Below are positions 46,986 through 54,950 of a DNA stretch of 64,000 nt, piece by piece; position 1 is the first letter of the stretch, and each line of letters starts with the position of its first letter. This DNA is from Paramacrobiotus metropolitanus. Lineage: Eukaryota; Tardigrada; Eutardigrada; Parachela; Macrobiotidae. The translations under genes and the position numbers were made by a program. The notes under the pieces are model-generated. The model searched no databases and had not been told where the DNA came from. It was given only the letters and a program-made list of their open reading frames with translations. The DNA lies in NCBI RefSeq assembly GCF_019649055.1, contig NW_026570280.1:186001-250000 (forward strand), written 5' to 3'.

Positions 46986-47710
46986 TTGCATTGCGACACA
47001 CTTTAAGTAGTATTATAGCATAAAGTAGTTTATCAGACGTGCGAAATTAAACCTGTAGGTTCGTCGAGAATGGTCAACTGCAAGAGGGGTAATAGACGAA
47101 ATTAACTCAGCTGTCCGCATAAATAGTTTTTTTCCAATAAAATGTAAACTGAATTTTTGATTTTTAATAAAGTTTCTGAAATAAACTATCCGTGACACCC
47201 CACCGCGTGATAAAGGTCATAAAATGGTTAATACAGAGTTAAGACGTCATGCAGAGCGCTTCACGGTTATAGATGAGAAAGTACAGGACTCAAATCTGAA
47301 TGTGTCTTGAGATTTCTTACTACTGACAACGGATCTGATTCTTCAAATCTAAATGTGTCTTGAGATTTCTTACTATTGACAACGGATCTGCACTAAGCAT
47401 TCCGGCAAAACATGCATTTACCGCAAAATGCACCGAACTATCCTACGCTAAACATTATAGAGAACTATTCTACGTTAAACATTATAGATGGTTATCTGAA
47501 TATGTATGCTGCCAAAATTCTTGTTATCTTTCTCCTGCTGTTAAAATCAGATTTAGCAAAAGAGGCCCGGCGGAAAAATATACTGCGAGCGCCATATTAT
47601 CTCAAATATTTTTATTATCTGCGGCAATTAAACCCTTTCTCCTCCGCCTAGCGAAAGAACCACTACTTTGTAATATTTTTTGATAGTTGGGAATCACTGT
47701 AATACTACAA
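46986..47710. other. intergenic region
   Basis: No supported gene. A short duplication (AAATGTGTCTTGAGATTTCT at about 47298 and 47350) and paired ACATTATAGA motifs. It lies 3' of the minus-strand lipocalin-catalase gene. Confidence 0.4.
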
Positions 47711-50700
47711 TTAGCACCGTTTTGTCGGATGCTGAAACAGCAGCTTATTATCCCCGTAATCCGACGCCACAAACTGCGTGATCAACTGGATGCGTCCGAT
47801 CAGCCGATCCGTGGCGTTTTCGCTCGGCCGTGCATACACCGTGTACAGCAAGCCCCCCGCCGGGATCTTCGCTAGGTTCACCCGAAAATCCGTCGTGTCG
47901 TTGGCCGGTTGGGCGTTGGCCGGATTGGGTACCAGCGAGACGATCAACGGCGCCACCGGCCGACTGACATTCCGCCCACTCTGCTCCACGGAAGCCTGCG
48001 CCACCAACGGACTCTTATTATTATCCAACGGCTGATTACACGCACCGCCCGGCTGCAGTTTAATCGCCGCGCGGGCGGTGCTGATCAGCTTGTTGGACAG
48101 CTCGTCCATATTGGGCGGAATGGGGATGTAGTTGCTAAAGGTCTCCGCGAAGAAGTTGTGGTTGGACTTCTGTCCGCCCAGTCCGCTGACCATGCCCTGC
48201 GCGAAGATGTTGACGGAGGGCCGGCCGCTGATGAAGATCTTCATGGCCAATCCCGGCACGATGTTGCGGACGTCGAGGTTCAGCCAGGATAGCCGGATCA
48301 GGCCGACGTTCTCGCTGCCACCCTGGAAAAAAGGGAAGTGCCGGGATGAAATCGTCATTTCGAACGTAAATTTCATTTTTTCTAATGTTGAAATGAATTT
48401 CAAAAGTTTAAAATTCATTTTTAAATTATGGAAAAGTGCTTTGAACCTGAAATTGGTTCACTTTCGACCTTATGCTAATGTGTCTTTTACAGCAAAGTTT
48501 CAAGGAGATCTGGTAATAACCAGACTTTTGGTACACACAAATGCATTTAAACTTTTCGCCCATTTTAGTTCGCCGTATCTCGGCAGCCGAATGTTGCGCG
48601 CGCAAACGGTTTTCAGAACAATGCATACAAATCATTTAGCTTTAGAATGACATAAAATACTACAAAAAAGTGATTCGGAGTCCGCGACAGCGAAAGTTTT
48701 AATGTATTGTACGGGGCCCTTTTTCCTAAATTGTTCTGTTCCTAAATTCGTTAATCTGCAAAATTAATTTTATTTCAAATCTTTTCAAAAACGACCCAGC
48801 GCTGTTAGAATTGCAGCCCTACCTTGAAGACACCGGTGTAGGTGCTGTTAGGCAGCACGGAGAACAACACCTTGGCAACGACCCCGAAATGGTTGAGGAT
48901 CTTGTTGCGATCGGCCGGATACTCGTCAGACTGAATCGAAAACGCCTTGCCGGTGTACACCGGACTCAAGAGCAGCGGCAGCGTCACCTCCGGGTCAAAG
49001 TCTTCAGTGGGGAGCGTGGCGTTGGGAAGATAGCGGGAGGTCAGGATGTTCTTCCAAATCCAAGCTTGTTTGTCGGCCGCCGAGAAGGACACGTAATTAT
49101 CCGGGAGCGTGTTGATGGCCGTTAGGTCCACGGCCTGCGACAGACCCTTAATGGCCTTGGCGATGCAGTCGCTGGCGTCGGCGTACTTGCAGGCCGGTTT
49201 GGAGGCGATCCATTTTACCACGGGGACATCCTGGACACTGCAGCCGTACTGCCGTAAGAAACCGTCGATGATTCGATCGAATTTGTCCTTATCGGCTTGC
49301 GGCAAGTGGGTCGGGTGGATGCGAGTGCTGGCGTAAACGAAGGGTTTGTCGCAGACTTTGGTCTGGGTGTTGGCCACGATGCAGCCGTAGTCCAGGGCGA
49401 ATTTGTCGTCGTAGTGCAGAGCGTTCATGCTGTTCCAAACTGTAGAGAACTCACAGTTTCATATATGTAATAATAGGTAACTCAATATATTTCAAACTAA
49501 TTACCCACGCTAAACCAATCTTTTATGCCTATCTGTATATAGATTCCAATACTATCTAATGTAAATTAGTTCAAAAGCCCCAAGTCCTCCGAACTTCGGA
49601 AGACTACGTAGTACGTATACAACATGTATGGACAACGAACTGGAGTGGTAAATGCTACAGCGTGCTTTTAAATGGGCGTTTCGTTGCGCTAGGATTTTAG
49701 AGCTCAGTTTTCGCAGTATTGGAATGCCCTTGTAAAAATAGTTCAGTATGTTACGCTAGCATAATCTGCTTTGAGAATTCTCTAAGACTAGCAAGAATTA
49801 ACGTACTAGGCATGGGTTCGCCGGTCGTCCTAACGTCAAACCCGATCTGGGCCCCGTTCTCCCCCACCGCGCCACTCCAGAACCCGTTATGGCACGTTTT
49901 GTCCTTCTCCCCGTTGTACTGCGCGTACTGAATCCATTGCCACTGCGCGGAGACGGTGCTCATCGGCAGCTCTCCCGGACCGATATTGTTGACGTGGTAC
50001 TGCTCGTTGACGGTGTCCGGCTCGTCGGTGTACAGTTTGCGGTACATGTACCAGGTCCCGGTTACCTAAGCATTACCATACATTTTCGCGAACTGGTTAC
50101 GCAAAGTAACTGATCCACAAGAGCCACACCTTCTTTGGTTCGTGCCTCTGATCTTCGAGATGAGGAATGACCAGCGGCCATTTGCACTGCGAACGGGTAG
50201 TGACATTGCCTTTCTTGGCATTGGGACGCGCCACCATCTCGCGGAGACCTCTGATCATGCGGGCGGTGCACTCGGGTGCCGGTGCGAAAGGGCAGAAAGG
50301 GTCTTTCGTGACGGTGACCTTGGGGATATCCTTGGCCTTAATGCAGTGCGGGGCCAGCATCCTGTCGATGAGTTTGTCCATGTCCGCTTGTTTGGCGCTG
50401 TCCAGCCGATCCGGTGACAGCCGGGTGTCGACGTGGAGAAGAGGCTGATCGCACGTGGAGGCCACGACGTCCTTGCTCTTCTTCAGACAACCGTATTCGA
50501 TCATCACGTTCTTGTTGTCAGTGTAAACCACGGTGTAGCTTTCCGGATCTGCAGTCAATTATTTCCCAAAAGCAGTTAGCCGGTATTTTTTGACACCAGC
50601 AAAAATAAATCACTGTCATGGAACTTACGAATAACCCCGGCGTCTCCGGCTGAAAAGCCGTATCCAGCCATGGTGCCGTTGTTGGAATACACCGACAAGT

Positions 50701-51338
50701 AATAATCGGACTGGCATTTGCCGTTTTCACTGTAGGCCGCGTTAGCCCAGTACGCTTGAGCGGGCTCACTGGTCAGCGGGATCGTGGTCGGGCCGACGAT
50801 GGTGACGTTGAAGTAGATGTTGGAAGCCGGCAGCTTGTTAATGCCTAGTGATCGGTACCGATACCACACTCCACCATACTAAACACCAAAGAACTTTTAA
50901 ATTCTAGCTATATATGGTTTTAAAAGCGTATTAAGGCGCTAAATTGGAGAGCCAAGTCCAAATGAAGTCACTTTTCGCGTTTTGGCGCACTGCGGAATAT
51001 TGAAAACCCGGTTTTTAAAAAGGCATGCTCCTTACCGCCTCGGGTTGGGCTTTGACCTGGGCCGGCATAATAAAGGGGAATTTCTTTTGCGTACAGAGCC
51101 CAGATTTCGGTTTCGGTACCAGACTCCACCACACTACATAGGTACATGGAACAGTTTAAATCAGTTTTTCATTAGGTACGTTAAACCGATACGCCAGTTT
51201 TGACGGATTGCAAAACGGTCCTTTCTAAGACTGTCAGTGTACCCTTACCATTTTGAGATTGTGCTTGGTTTTGACGAAGATCACGCAGGGGATCCCCTGT
51301 AGTCTGCCTGGTTGCGGCGCATAAGCCATGACACACAA
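47711..51338 (-). CDS. tandem lipocalin - catalase-like heme domain fusion protein
   Basis: Six minus-strand exons with consistent phases: 51338-51249, 50878-50629, 50548-50130, 50065-49807, 49439-48823, 48322-47711; 748 residues, with a 5' exon (signal peptide) not found. Lipocalin 1 shows GGVWYRYRSL, a mid EYGC and the C-terminal VDTRLSP..C pattern. Lipocalin 2 repeats this with GTWYMYRKLY, DYGC and YASTRIHP. The two share intron positions, so one arose from the other. Then comes a catalase-related domain: NHFGVVAKVLF (the R/N-x-H..G..AKV segment around the distal His), YTGVFK, LIRLSWLNL, NIVPGLAMKIF, NHNFFAETFSNYIP, and the end LLFQHPTKR. I see no clear proximal Tyr motif. Likely secreted. 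The donor at 50129 (GTGTGG) is weak. A heme or ligand role is inferred from family only. Confidence 0.75.
48520..48720 (+). repeat. half of the foldback MITE in a lipocalin-gene intron
   Basis: Carries ACTTTTGGTACACACAAATG, CGCGCAAACGGTTTTC and CAAATCATTTAGCT in the family order, ending near GTACGGGGCCC. It sits in the intron 48323-48822. The partner arm is not recognisable. Confidence 0.5.
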
Positions 51339-52324
51339 CTGCAATAAAATCCGGCTGTGCAAATATATTTATTTACAACAACTGAATCAATGTATTGTAC
51401 AGAATTAACGAGGATACTTTTAACAGACGATAATTCGATCGCATGTACCTGTTAAGATAAATATCCACCGCATTTTGACCAATCTTGCGTACAGCCTAGG
51501 CTCCACCGGCAGATAATATGCTAAATGTAGACGGAACCAGCTGTCTGCGTTTTCTACTTGCAATCAAATAAGCGACAAGTTGCCACACTGGCAGACCTGG
51601 GGCGTTTGTAGGAGCGTTACCAAACCACCTGCCGTTAATGCGTTGGCTGCGTTATGTTAAGTTGTTAACTCTCGTGTTGCTCCATCGTCACCGTGTCAAA
51701 GATCTTACAAGCAGTTTAACCGAGGCAATCAGGGAGTGTTAATAGCTGTCTAAGCAGCTGCAGGCCATGAAATGTGAAATGTCATTTTGCCTTTTCATTT
51801 ATAAGGAGCATGAACACGTTCCTCGATTAACACGTTAGTGAAGTTAGTTTTCAGTATTAGACACAAAACTAAGGTTGACGTTAGCTCAATTCCGGCAAGA
51901 GTTACTGGCTCCCTAAAGTCTCAAGACCGTCGAAGGAATCAGTTTTCAGAAAAAAATAACAAACATTAGAAACTCAGTATAAAGATGTATAATTTGATAG
52001 CTTTCGCTTAAACTTATTTGATAGCTTTTACTTATTAAAATGAGAGATTAAATTGCAGCTTGATGTAAACAACGACTGTTTTCAGTTCCGGTCGCACGAG
52101 CATGGTTTTGTTAAGACCAGTTAATTCCGCCACCAACCACCCATTATACAGTAGCTGATAATCGTTGCCGTAATTACCATTAATTTATCCAATAGTTGTA
52201 ATGTAGATATATACAAATTTTTACTATAGATAGTTGTTGTCGTAATTACTCTATATTATACTGCGTAGTCATATCGCGTGTTGGCCATTGGCTCCATTAT
52301 TGGCCGCCACCAGAGCAGCCTGAG
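51339..52324. other. intergenic region, probably includes the missing 5' exon
   Basis: The 5' end of the lipocalin-catalase gene should lie here or further right, because the exon at 51338 is preceded by a TATTGCAG acceptor and an in-frame stop. I found no convincing signal-peptide exon. No other gene seen. Confidence 0.4.
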
Positions 52325-53216
52325 CTATGGATCGACATTCAAATAGGTCGACTGGACGATCCATTCGTGGAGGTGTCGATGCGGCCGGAACCAGCACTCC
52401 ACCCAGCCGATATCGCTCTGGTCAACGTAGGTGGAATTCAAGTGGAATGAAAAGACGCCGTCCCGCGTGTTGTCCGTGATGCCTGAGTCGCTAGCGGAGG
52501 TAGGGAATAGACGCGCCGCGTAGGACGAATTGCGCGGTACGTTGGCAATGGGCCGGTTTGAGATGTCGCGTACCACAGCGCCGCCCACGGTACGGGGCGG
52601 GTCCGTCGCATTTCCCGTCCACCACGTCGGCAGATGCGAAGTGTAGGGCTCTTCAGCCGGCGCATTCAGCAGCTGACCCTGGTGCCGCCACATGTAATGG
52701 TGCCGCACGTTCTCCGCGACCTCCGGAGCCAGTGGCAGCCTCACCCGGCAACTTATGTTGAAGGTGCCCCGGTGACCGCCTCCTGGTTTCGCGGCAGACT
52801 TTCCGCGAAGACCTCAGCGACCCGTGTGGCGCGGGGAATCAGGGTGAAGCGCCGCAGCACGGTCGTCCTGGCCGCCGCATCCAAGAGGCAGATGACCTCA
52901 CCGCAGAACTGTAGGGAAACGTTACGGATACGGAGCACCGCGGTCCCGTCGTCCAACTGCGCGAACTCGTAGTGCGGATGGGGCGCCAAGGGCTGGCCGC
53001 GTTCGAAGACGGTGCGGCCTTGGACGGTCCAGCTGATGCGGGCGGAGTGCCCGCCCACGGGAAGGGGACATCTGAATGTCACAGTTTCCCCCCGACGCGG
53101 TCGTACCACGCTGGCTGACGGTGACGCCGACGTTGTCGCAGTCGGTGGAAACGGCAGCGTGACCATGTTGTCTTCCATATTCTCCAATGCGCGCTCAATC
53201 ATGTGAAATGCATTAC
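52325..53216 (-). pseudogene. two-Ig-domain family member with frameshift
   Basis: From the acceptor near 53216 an Ig domain (VTFRCPLPVGG, ISWTVQGRTVF, GEVICLLDAA) runs to about 52750. There a 1-nt frame change inside GTCACCGGGGCACC separates it from domain 2 (ISCRVRLPLAPEV, YMWRHQGQ, WVECWFRPHRHLHEWIVQ), which ends at 52325. Otherwise the sequence is well preserved and domain 2 has an extra ~20 residues (SSYAARLFPTSASDSG). One indel could be a sequencing error, so functional status is open. Confidence 0.7.
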
Positions 53217-54950
53217 CTACTACAAAAATTAATTTTACCCCGAAAAAAAAAGAATTAATACGTATTGACTTATACATGCTCAGATTGTAGTTATACTTAT
53301 TAAAATAGTTATACACTTATTAAAATAGTTAATTATACATGCTCAGATTGTAGTTATACTTATTAAAATAGTTTACTTACACTTATACTTAATTATTGCA
53401 TGATAATTAATGCTTGATTATTTAGAAAAACTACCGGTATCTCTTATCTAAACAAATTATTACTATGCAAAAGTGTTCGGATAAATACTACCAGGAGCCG
53501 AAGCATGCCAACGGCACAGTTTTTACACTATGTCTAAAACAACACTTAACATAATTTCCATTTCCTGCGTACTGCTTACTTGTGATGTACCTGTAAAGGA
53601 TGTAGGAATCCGCCAATGGTCAGAGTTCGCAACCGCGGTCGTTTGCCTGGTGCACGCGCTGCACCGAAGATCTGGCTGCCAAAAGCACAGCAGCCAGCCG
53701 TAAACCGTCAATGTACGATGCATGGAAAGGAAGGAACCACTGTACGTCACCTTGGATAAATATTGTTATTTTGCGTACGTGTGTACTTTGCGTACAGTAC
53801 TTGCGTTATTTTGCGTGACGATGCCATACGCACTGCTTCAATTTTATTATAGACATTTTTTTGCGGCGATTATATCGCCGGTTGCTAGGGAACTCGTTGA
53901 TTCATCCTGGTGCATGGTACTGCGGTTCGGTCCGTAACCATTAAGCTCGTGGAGAAGCCTGCTTCAAATCAATTTACAATATTGGTACAGGTCCTATACC
54001 TAGACCAATTGATCTATACCATTGACAAGTTCTACTATGCAGAACATGGTGTGACACCAGCAACGCGTATAATTATGAGCTATAGCATCTTAATAAGACG
54101 GCAGTATGGGCTGTGACGAGCTGACGAACAAAGCTAGTCTTACGATGTCGTGATGCAAGAAATGCCGGGAATAGCAGCTGAAAGTTAACAGCTATAACCT
54201 TAATAGTAAAATTACAGCCGAAAGAGAACTGAAACCGAACCGAACGAAAAATGCAGCTCATCCCATCCACTCAGCCCAACCAAGTACAAGAAACTGACGA
54301 GTTTCGTACAGCACCACAACACTGGCCTACGGCTTCCTGTTGTGACCCATTCAACGTCGCTCCTAAGAGGACTATTATTAAAAAAAGTGTTATTTTATTA
54401 TTAAGGCTATAGGTAGATTAAAAAACTGTTATTTTATTAAGGAAGTAGTCGTCAATATACATGTATTGTCATCGCATTGATGATGATTGATGGACCGCAT
54501 ATTTATTGGCGCACCTGCCATTGCGCTTAGTTATTTCAAAAAAACGTCCGACCAGAATTGCCATGCTAGCTGTTCAGTCGCAGCAGCATCTCGTTTCCGG
54601 GTTTCCAAAAGCAGACTTGTTACAAAAACCCGGCATCCGGTGTGCCGGCTGTCTAATTAGCTCATTCGCGATGGGCATTAACGGCACCAGTTTTTCCGGG
54701 TGACTCCAGAGAACTCCAGGACGGTTTAACCGGCAATCGGAACGTACCTCGCTCATTTCTACAGTACGGCAATAATATTGTATTTAGTATCCCGTGCCGA
54801 TTCGGTTCCGTCAAGTGGTTGCCACGTTATCCGCATGGACAAGAACTTTACCAGCCATTCCGACGGATCAGGTGGTGACCCGCGTAGCGGAGAGATGTTA
54901 CTTATATAGTATTTACTGGAGAAAGTATTCTGGATGCTTTCAAAAGCGGT
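53217..54950. other. intergenic region with dispersed repeats
   Basis: Contains a ~66-bp tandem duplication (ATACATGCTCAGATTGTAGT, 53270-53370) and a segment (53590-53950) related to 25640-25790 and 27830-27920. No supported coding region. Confidence 0.4.

Follow-up and report, generated by a model that had tools for sequence, protein, structure and literature searches.

The 64,000-nucleotide stretch of Paramacrobiotus metropolitanus DNA analysed here (the window, which sits on contig C60 of the 169.8-Mb, 533-contig assembly that we searched) carries on its minus strand, between positions 51473 and 47711, a gene that joins two lipocalin-like repeats to a domain probably related, at some distance, to catalases. 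A frame-consistent splice model comprises eight exons, all with GT/AG borders and compatible phases, and gives a product of 789 residues, which opens MRWIFILTVVCHGLCAA... and, judged by eye, has a signal-peptide-like N-terminus. The parts of the model and their support are as follows.

51449..51473, minus strand: exon 1, start codon and beginning of the putative signal peptide (MRWIFILT), phase 1 out; splice model only, without paralogue support
51249..51338, minus strand: exon 2, remainder of the putative signal peptide and a linker (VVCHGLCAATRQTTGDPLRDLRQNQAQSQN); splice model only
51036..51133, minus strand: exon 3, N-terminal piece of repeat 1, lipocalin-like (CTQKKFPFIM...QPEA); splice model and paralogue match
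50629..50878, minus strand: exon 4, GxW half of repeat 1 (YGGVWYRYRSL...); splice model, genome matches and repeat alignment A5
50130..50548, minus strand: exon 5, C-terminal half of repeat 1 (YTDN...YGC...R) and N-terminal piece of repeat 2 (CKWPLVIP); splice model, genome matches and A5
49807..50065, minus strand: exon 6, GxW half of repeat 2 (VTGTWYMYRKLY...); splice model, genome matches and A5
48823..49439, minus strand: exon 7, C-terminal half of repeat 2, then the catalase-like domain from about 49125; open frame and splice model
48323..48822, minus strand: intron of 500 bases within the catalase-like domain, at AAG|G; splice model
47711..48322, minus strand: exon 8, remainder of the catalase-like domain, ending in TAA; splice model and paralogue alignment
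47611..47616, minus strand: AATAAA, polyadenylation-signal-like, about 95 bases past the stop codon

The gene is a real fusion. Exon 7 (617 bases) lies within one open frame, 49458-48805, and passes from the last part of repeat 2 to the C-terminal domain uninterrupted by stop or intron; because a single open exon crosses this junction, we are dealing with one gene and not two. In genome searches the halves of exon 7 match relatives of two different families, and since both halves of the gene have many relatives in the same genome, the observation is not due to chance. Four tandem-lipocalin genes on contig C157 stop where the window gene reads on, and the stand-alone paralogues of the C-terminal domain begin at the junction point, in most cases preceded by their own signal-peptide-like stretch (judged by eye). 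The genome search with the C-terminal domain returned 17 match rows, which correspond to 15 loci: the window locus, ten open loci with a nearly whole domain, all single exons, three with an internal stop and one relict. Among the repeat matches listed, lipocalin-like exons are joined to this domain at the window locus only, one of the 15.

The closest relatives of both halves (for the repeats, among the matches listed) are separate genes lying within about 20 kb on C157. Identity to the window gene is 69% for the catalase-like gene, 62-76% for repeat 2 and 46-58% for repeat 1. On the same contig, a truncated and degenerate catalase-like relict (L044, C157:131370-131744) follows a tandem-lipocalin gene in the same orientation, about 0.6 kb downstream, and this is a layout from which such a fusion could arise. 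Pairwise ratios of nonsynonymous to synonymous substitution rates (dN/dS) are low, at 0.158 in the catalase-like part (where dS is 1.48) and at 0.098, 0.139 and 0.225 in three pieces of the lipocalin part (dS 1.15-1.28). Synonymous divergence is similar in the two halves and near saturation, and a pairwise ratio mixes both lineages, so that constraint after the fusion is not isolated. On C157 a further open reading frame (L045, C157:143010-143429; ANIPWGQTFSGTKLTYYDDAGYGACGTQINA...) separates the catalase-like gene from a tandem-lipocalin gene; its product may resemble expansin or RlpA-like double-psi barrels.

An earlier note on this DNA, made from the letters alone, had described splice-consistent exons on the minus strand. 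Five of them (50878-50629, 50548-50130, 50065-49807, 49439-48823 and 48322-47711) agree in borders and phases with our model. Its first exon, 51338-51249, does not: the frame in which it had been read (LCVMAYAPQP...) does not lead into the next repeat piece. The exon at 51133-51036, which paralogues match, had been skipped, and the 748 residues then given become 789 in the frame-consistent model. Counterparts of the CTQKKFPFIM segment of that exon precede the GxW exon in the C157 paralogues, as CTEKRFPYLM, CTEKTFPYLM and CTEKAFPSSI. With exon 3 included the model needs no frame break, and we thus prefer the start at 51473; a start at 51338 was rejected on account of the splice frame and the paralogue-matched exon 3. 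One result pulls the other way at this end of the gene, where exons 1 and 2 have the splice model as their support: third-position GC in exon 2 is 0.38 in the frame from 51473 against 0.67 in the frame read earlier. We also observed that the first bases of exon 3 (51099-51133) and of exon 4 (50844-50878) are identical at 26 of 35 positions, though read in different frames, which suggests a partial duplication of the start of the GxW exon, reused as a splice acceptor.

The two repeats are built alike. An intron of phase 0 precedes GxW and one of phase 1 precedes the C-terminal half in both, so that the matching repeats with common intron positions seen earlier are borne out in place as well as in phase. 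Compared as profiles, repeat 1 and repeat 2 match with an hhalign E-value of 6.5e-32, the identity of the two window repeats being 27%. Relatives abound in the genome: repeat 1 has at least 157 exon matches (150 scored out of 174 candidates) and repeat 2 at least 160 (150 scored out of 211), many of which show the four-exon pattern of tandem-repeat genes.

Are these repeats lipocalins? The lipocalin motif layout consists of a GxW near the N-terminus, a TDY-like strand, a later arginine and paired cysteines. Our alignment A5 holds ten repeats, one of them without its N-terminal exon. G24 and W26 of the GxW near the repeat start are invariant in all ten rows, as are D115, R147, C76, C125, C137, C190 and C198, while C2 is nearly so; but the position of the TDY-like motif reads TDN in first repeats and YDD or YDN in second repeats. 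Each repeat has in common with the lipocalin families PF00061 and PF08212 the GxW, a D...YGC strand, the later arginine and the paired cysteines, and differs in its tandem arrangement and its fusion to a catalase-like domain. Profiles do not confirm the assignment. In Pfam neither the window protein nor any of the ten A5 repeats has a lipocalin match, and PF00061 hits four places in the genome, none of them among the repeat matches listed. Against seven bacterial lipocalins (of eight loci, L062 having no usable frame), A5 scores 15.5, within the range of 100 shuffles (maximum 24.2), and a broader set of 31 repeat domains scores 19.3 (P 0.032; maximum of 100 shuffles 19.5), with the motifs in the expected register; neither amounts to significant similarity. 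The identification made in the earlier note keeps its GxW motifs, without gaining the backing of profiles: the repeats are likely but unproven lipocalins, a name that rests on motifs. One of the PF00061 places, on contig C14, was considered as a relative of the repeats and rejected, being unlike them; we take it to resemble a fatty-acid-binding protein.

For the C-terminal domain, a scan of bacterial and archaeal genomes found 31 relatives with 25-36% identity. We worked with three alignments: A1, with ten animal members (L011, L081, L082 and L083 were not included); A2, with 18 of the 31 relatives (L038, L039 and L041 were omitted as broken or partial and ten others as similar loci; L025 and L026 were shortened by a few residues); and A3, with 22 family members including 12 of the 18 A2 sequences. 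Among the members scanned, none is recognised by Pfam or NCBIfam. In Pfam, none of the ten A1 members matched any entry, PF00199 included, and four bacterial proteins had no match to PF00199; the same genome does hold catalase matches to PF00199 above the cut-off, on three contigs. NCBIfam produced one chance-level match (FnrL, E 0.18, one of ten members), HHH_9 (E 0.18-0.21) being likewise at chance level, and a sequence profile search of the PDB gave nothing meaningful (E 0.13 and worse). For the lipocalin-like half, too, the hits in Pfam, NCBIfam and PDB sequence searches stayed at chance level.

Profile-profile comparison tells more. Aligned by hhalign with eight catalase-type sequences, A3 reaches a probability of 61% and a score of 40.7 over 77 columns (P 7.9e-5), and the animal members of A1 alone score 40.7 as well; 100 column shuffles of each peak at 22.3 (A3) and 26.8 (A1), and the reversed alignments score 13.9 and 15.5. 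In this register the conserved histidine of the family falls on the distal histidine of catalases (H67 of the coral allene oxide synthase, cAOS) and its RLS/RFS arginine on R102. The roles of these residues in cAOS are those given in PMC5617202. Several comparisons count against a close tie. The bacterial alignment A2 alone reaches a probability of only 1.5% (P 0.034); A3 set against subsets of the catalases in default local mode (cAOS, SrpA-like or Kat sequences alone, or cAOS with SrpA-like) gives P between 0.002 and 0.22, the score being strong with the mixed catalase set only; and a plain hidden Markov model search of catalase reading frames with A3 found nothing significant. We hold with moderate confidence that the domain is distantly related to catalase. 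Its distal histidine region, its RFS-like arginine strand and its PG.A.K strand align with those of the PF00199 catalases (KatA/KatE, SrpA-like, mini-catalases), and it differs from them in being shorter. The profile search against lipocalin and catalase models proposed in the earlier note therefore came out empty in Pfam for both parts, and the catalase relationship it had seen stands by profile-profile comparison, not by the Pfam, NCBIfam or PDB sequence searches.

Could this domain work as a catalase-type haem enzyme? In all eight catalase-type sequences 270-295 residues separate the distal histidine from the tyrosine that ligates the haem, whereas in the 28 family members aligned the distal-histidine column is followed by 202-231 residues, the sequences ending 40-90 residues before the expected tyrosine. 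By this alignment, the tyrosine segment is missing from all 28, too few residues being left to hold it. A tyrosine in an SxYxD motif near the C-terminus makes a poor substitute, since it is replaced (by eye) by phenylalanine in 12 of the 28 members and by tryptophan in one. The window copy has in addition an asparagine at the distal histidine (H74N), which the other 27 all keep, as do L011, L081 and L083 outside the alignment, and a lysine for the glycine of the GQG motif (G149K); it differs at no further column that is invariant among those 27. The short C-terminus and the two substitutions make a catalase-type haem enzyme unlikely at this locus, and the 'heme domain' and 'enzyme' of the earlier note are not supported. 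Some observations argue for caution here. A copy with a stop inside the match (L082) reads GQM at the GQG motif, and a divergent cyanobacterial match outside the 28 (L093) carries about 60 additional residues at its C-terminus. A near-C-terminal FFxH histidine is invariant in the 22 sequences of A3 and kept in the window copy, so that another haem or metal site there is possible. The barrel arginine R107 is also kept. With the counterpart of catalase's key histidine lost, ligand binding, and not the destruction of peroxide, is the probable role of the protein.

The bacterial relatives point to a particular chemical neighbourhood. In a Pseudomonas relative (L029) the domain stands behind an animal-haem-peroxidase (An_peroxidase) domain in the same chain (E 1.6e-108), and a similar long frame occurs in many others among the bacterial matches listed, as judged by frame length alone. 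In the cyanobacterial loci L025 and L038 (the latter with broken frames) the domain directly follows a cyclooxygenase-like (COX-like) peroxidase gene, and in the proteobacterial L036 it adjoins a divergent one. Within the class of L025 the family occurs in ten of 242 genomes searched, and nine of these ten loci, one of which (L085) is L025's own, have a relative of the L025 peroxidase next to the domain. The loci with a fused or adjacent COX-like haem peroxidase are L025, L038, L036, L029 and L084-L092. None of five stand-alone loci (L013, L021, L026, L028 and L043) has such a peroxidase in the one or two large neighbouring frames scanned. In a tree of 29 rows the window copy pairs with the stand-alone paralogue L001 (support 100/100), and the 11 animal copies lie with four Bdellovibrionota/Myxococcota relatives on one side of a branch of 100/100; the tree leaves the order within that side unsettled, so a bacterial origin of the animal copies is possible at most.

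None of the single-exon paralogues read has the 500-base intron of the catalase-like domain. The borders of this intron at AAG|G are clean, and no residues are lost relative to L001. Its bases 116-447 correspond to a single arm of a paired inverted repeat present in high copy number (40 of 1367 candidate places scored). The arms of this repeat are frequently found as plus/minus pairs, with overlaps of tens of bases, in the manner of fold-back elements; the first 62 bases of the intron have a single, weaker match elsewhere (C296, 82%). Scans with Rfam models and for tRNAs across the window gave no matches. Upstream of the gene, at 52325-53316 on the minus strand, two long frames (187 and 162 residues) look like pieces of a putative immunoglobulin-like protein.

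What does the fused chain do? The explanation we favour, with moderate confidence, is that of a lineage-specific fusion gene encoding a secreted three-barrel protein, in which a signal peptide is followed by two lipocalin-like repeats and a catalase-like barrel, and whose role would be ligand binding, with a non-enzymatic C-terminus. The fusion would have come about in a cluster of the C157 type, through the joining of a tandem-lipocalin gene to the catalase-like gene next to it, at the cost of the stop codon of the first and the signal peptide of the second. Outside the cells, the repeats would capture or carry some small hydrophobic molecule. Our best guess for it is an oxidised lipid, perhaps an oxidised fatty acid, since the ancestral family may have acted on what fatty-acid dioxygenases produce. 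The C-terminal barrel would serve as a third binding or structural domain, without peroxide or hydroperoxide chemistry of the catalase type. The architecture itself, two lipocalin-like repeats and a catalase-related domain in a probably secreted chain, is as the earlier note had it, and agrees with both the splice model and the profile comparisons. That note had gone further and proposed an active carrier-plus-enzyme, in which the catalase-like domain converts the lipid hydroperoxide or haem that the repeats have captured. A connection with lipid hydroperoxides finds some support in the bacterial members fused to or lying beside COX-like genes, and the low dN/dS, the retained FFxH histidine and R107, and the coral fusions of cAOS or a hydroperoxide lyase (cHPL) to a lipoxygenase (LOX), whose catalase-related domains act on fatty-acid hydroperoxides (PMC5617202), all suit an enzyme. 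Yet the asparagine at the distal histidine of the window copy, found in none of the other 27 members, the lack of room for the haem-ligand tyrosine and the variability of the SxYxD tyrosine make enzymatic processing unlikely, and a secreted multi-barrel binding protein is more likely than a catalase-type haem enzyme.

The loss of two otherwise invariant residues may instead be read as decay, the locus being an accidental fusion on its way to a pseudogene, or a mis-assembled gene with a repeat-bearing insertion. The relict behind a tandem-lipocalin gene on C157, the stop inside the match in three other copies of the genome and the high-copy repeat arm within the intron are what such a history might leave. 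We think it unlikely, slightly more so than a working enzyme, in view of 789 codons free of stop and frameshift, of dN/dS between 0.10 and 0.23 in the parts tested, of a third-position GC of 0.69-0.84 in exons 4 to 8, and of an intron with clean borders that costs no residue. Improbable to a further degree is that the locus gives two separate proteins, through cleavage of the linker or an internal start, so that the fusion would have no joint role: the linker between the parts is indeed short and both parts exist elsewhere as separate genes, but exon 7 has, by eye, neither a signal-peptide-like stretch nor a plausible start codon before the catalase-like part, and the stand-alone paralogues mostly do have a signal stretch. 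A wider version of the secreted binding protein is tentative, with a low probability. It would have an undescribed catalase-fold family that lacks the haem-ligand tyrosine, and is a regular partner of bacterial COX-like fatty-acid dioxygenases, taken up by the animal lineage and expanded to about 14 loci, many of them secreted and single-exon, one copy of which, having no distal histidine, was fused to a tandem lipocalin, giving a secreted protein whose three barrels scavenge oxidised lipids.

A comparable pair of enzymes is known from Nostoc punctiforme: according to PMC13049297 and PMC9579011, which cite the primary paper (Brash 2014), a COX-like 10S-dioxygenase and a catalase-related hydroperoxide lyase of that species are reported to act in sequence. 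The family studied here likewise neighbours COX-like genes in cyanobacteria. Around the distal histidine, it aligns with the cyanobacterial cAOS-like sequences of our alignment A4. With the coral cAOS-LOX and cHPL-LOX proteins the window gene shares the natural fusion of a catalase-fold domain to a lipid-handling partner, although that partner is a lipoxygenase, and thus a dioxygenase, in corals and lipocalin-like here; and whereas cAOS keeps the distal H67, T66, N137 and the proximal Y353 (PMC5617202), the aligned members of our family end before the tyrosine and the window copy has no distal histidine. A lipocalin-catalase fusion was not seen among the papers listed on tardigrade catalase-like proteins, on tardigrade lipocalins, on tardigrade genomes with lipocalins or family expansion, or on lipocalin-catalase multidomain proteins; the available text of PMC5531438 has no mention of 'lipocalin', and that of PMC11719350 no matching passage.

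The gene brings two kinds of ligand-handling domain into one chain, and the catalase relative in it has probably ceased to be an enzyme. A second point of interest is the family behind that domain, without a model of its own, standing beside or fused to bacterial COX-like dioxygenases and multiplied in an animal genome. If our explanation is true, a secreted means of handling oxidised lipids in a tardigrade would bear on how these animals meet desiccation and oxidative stress.

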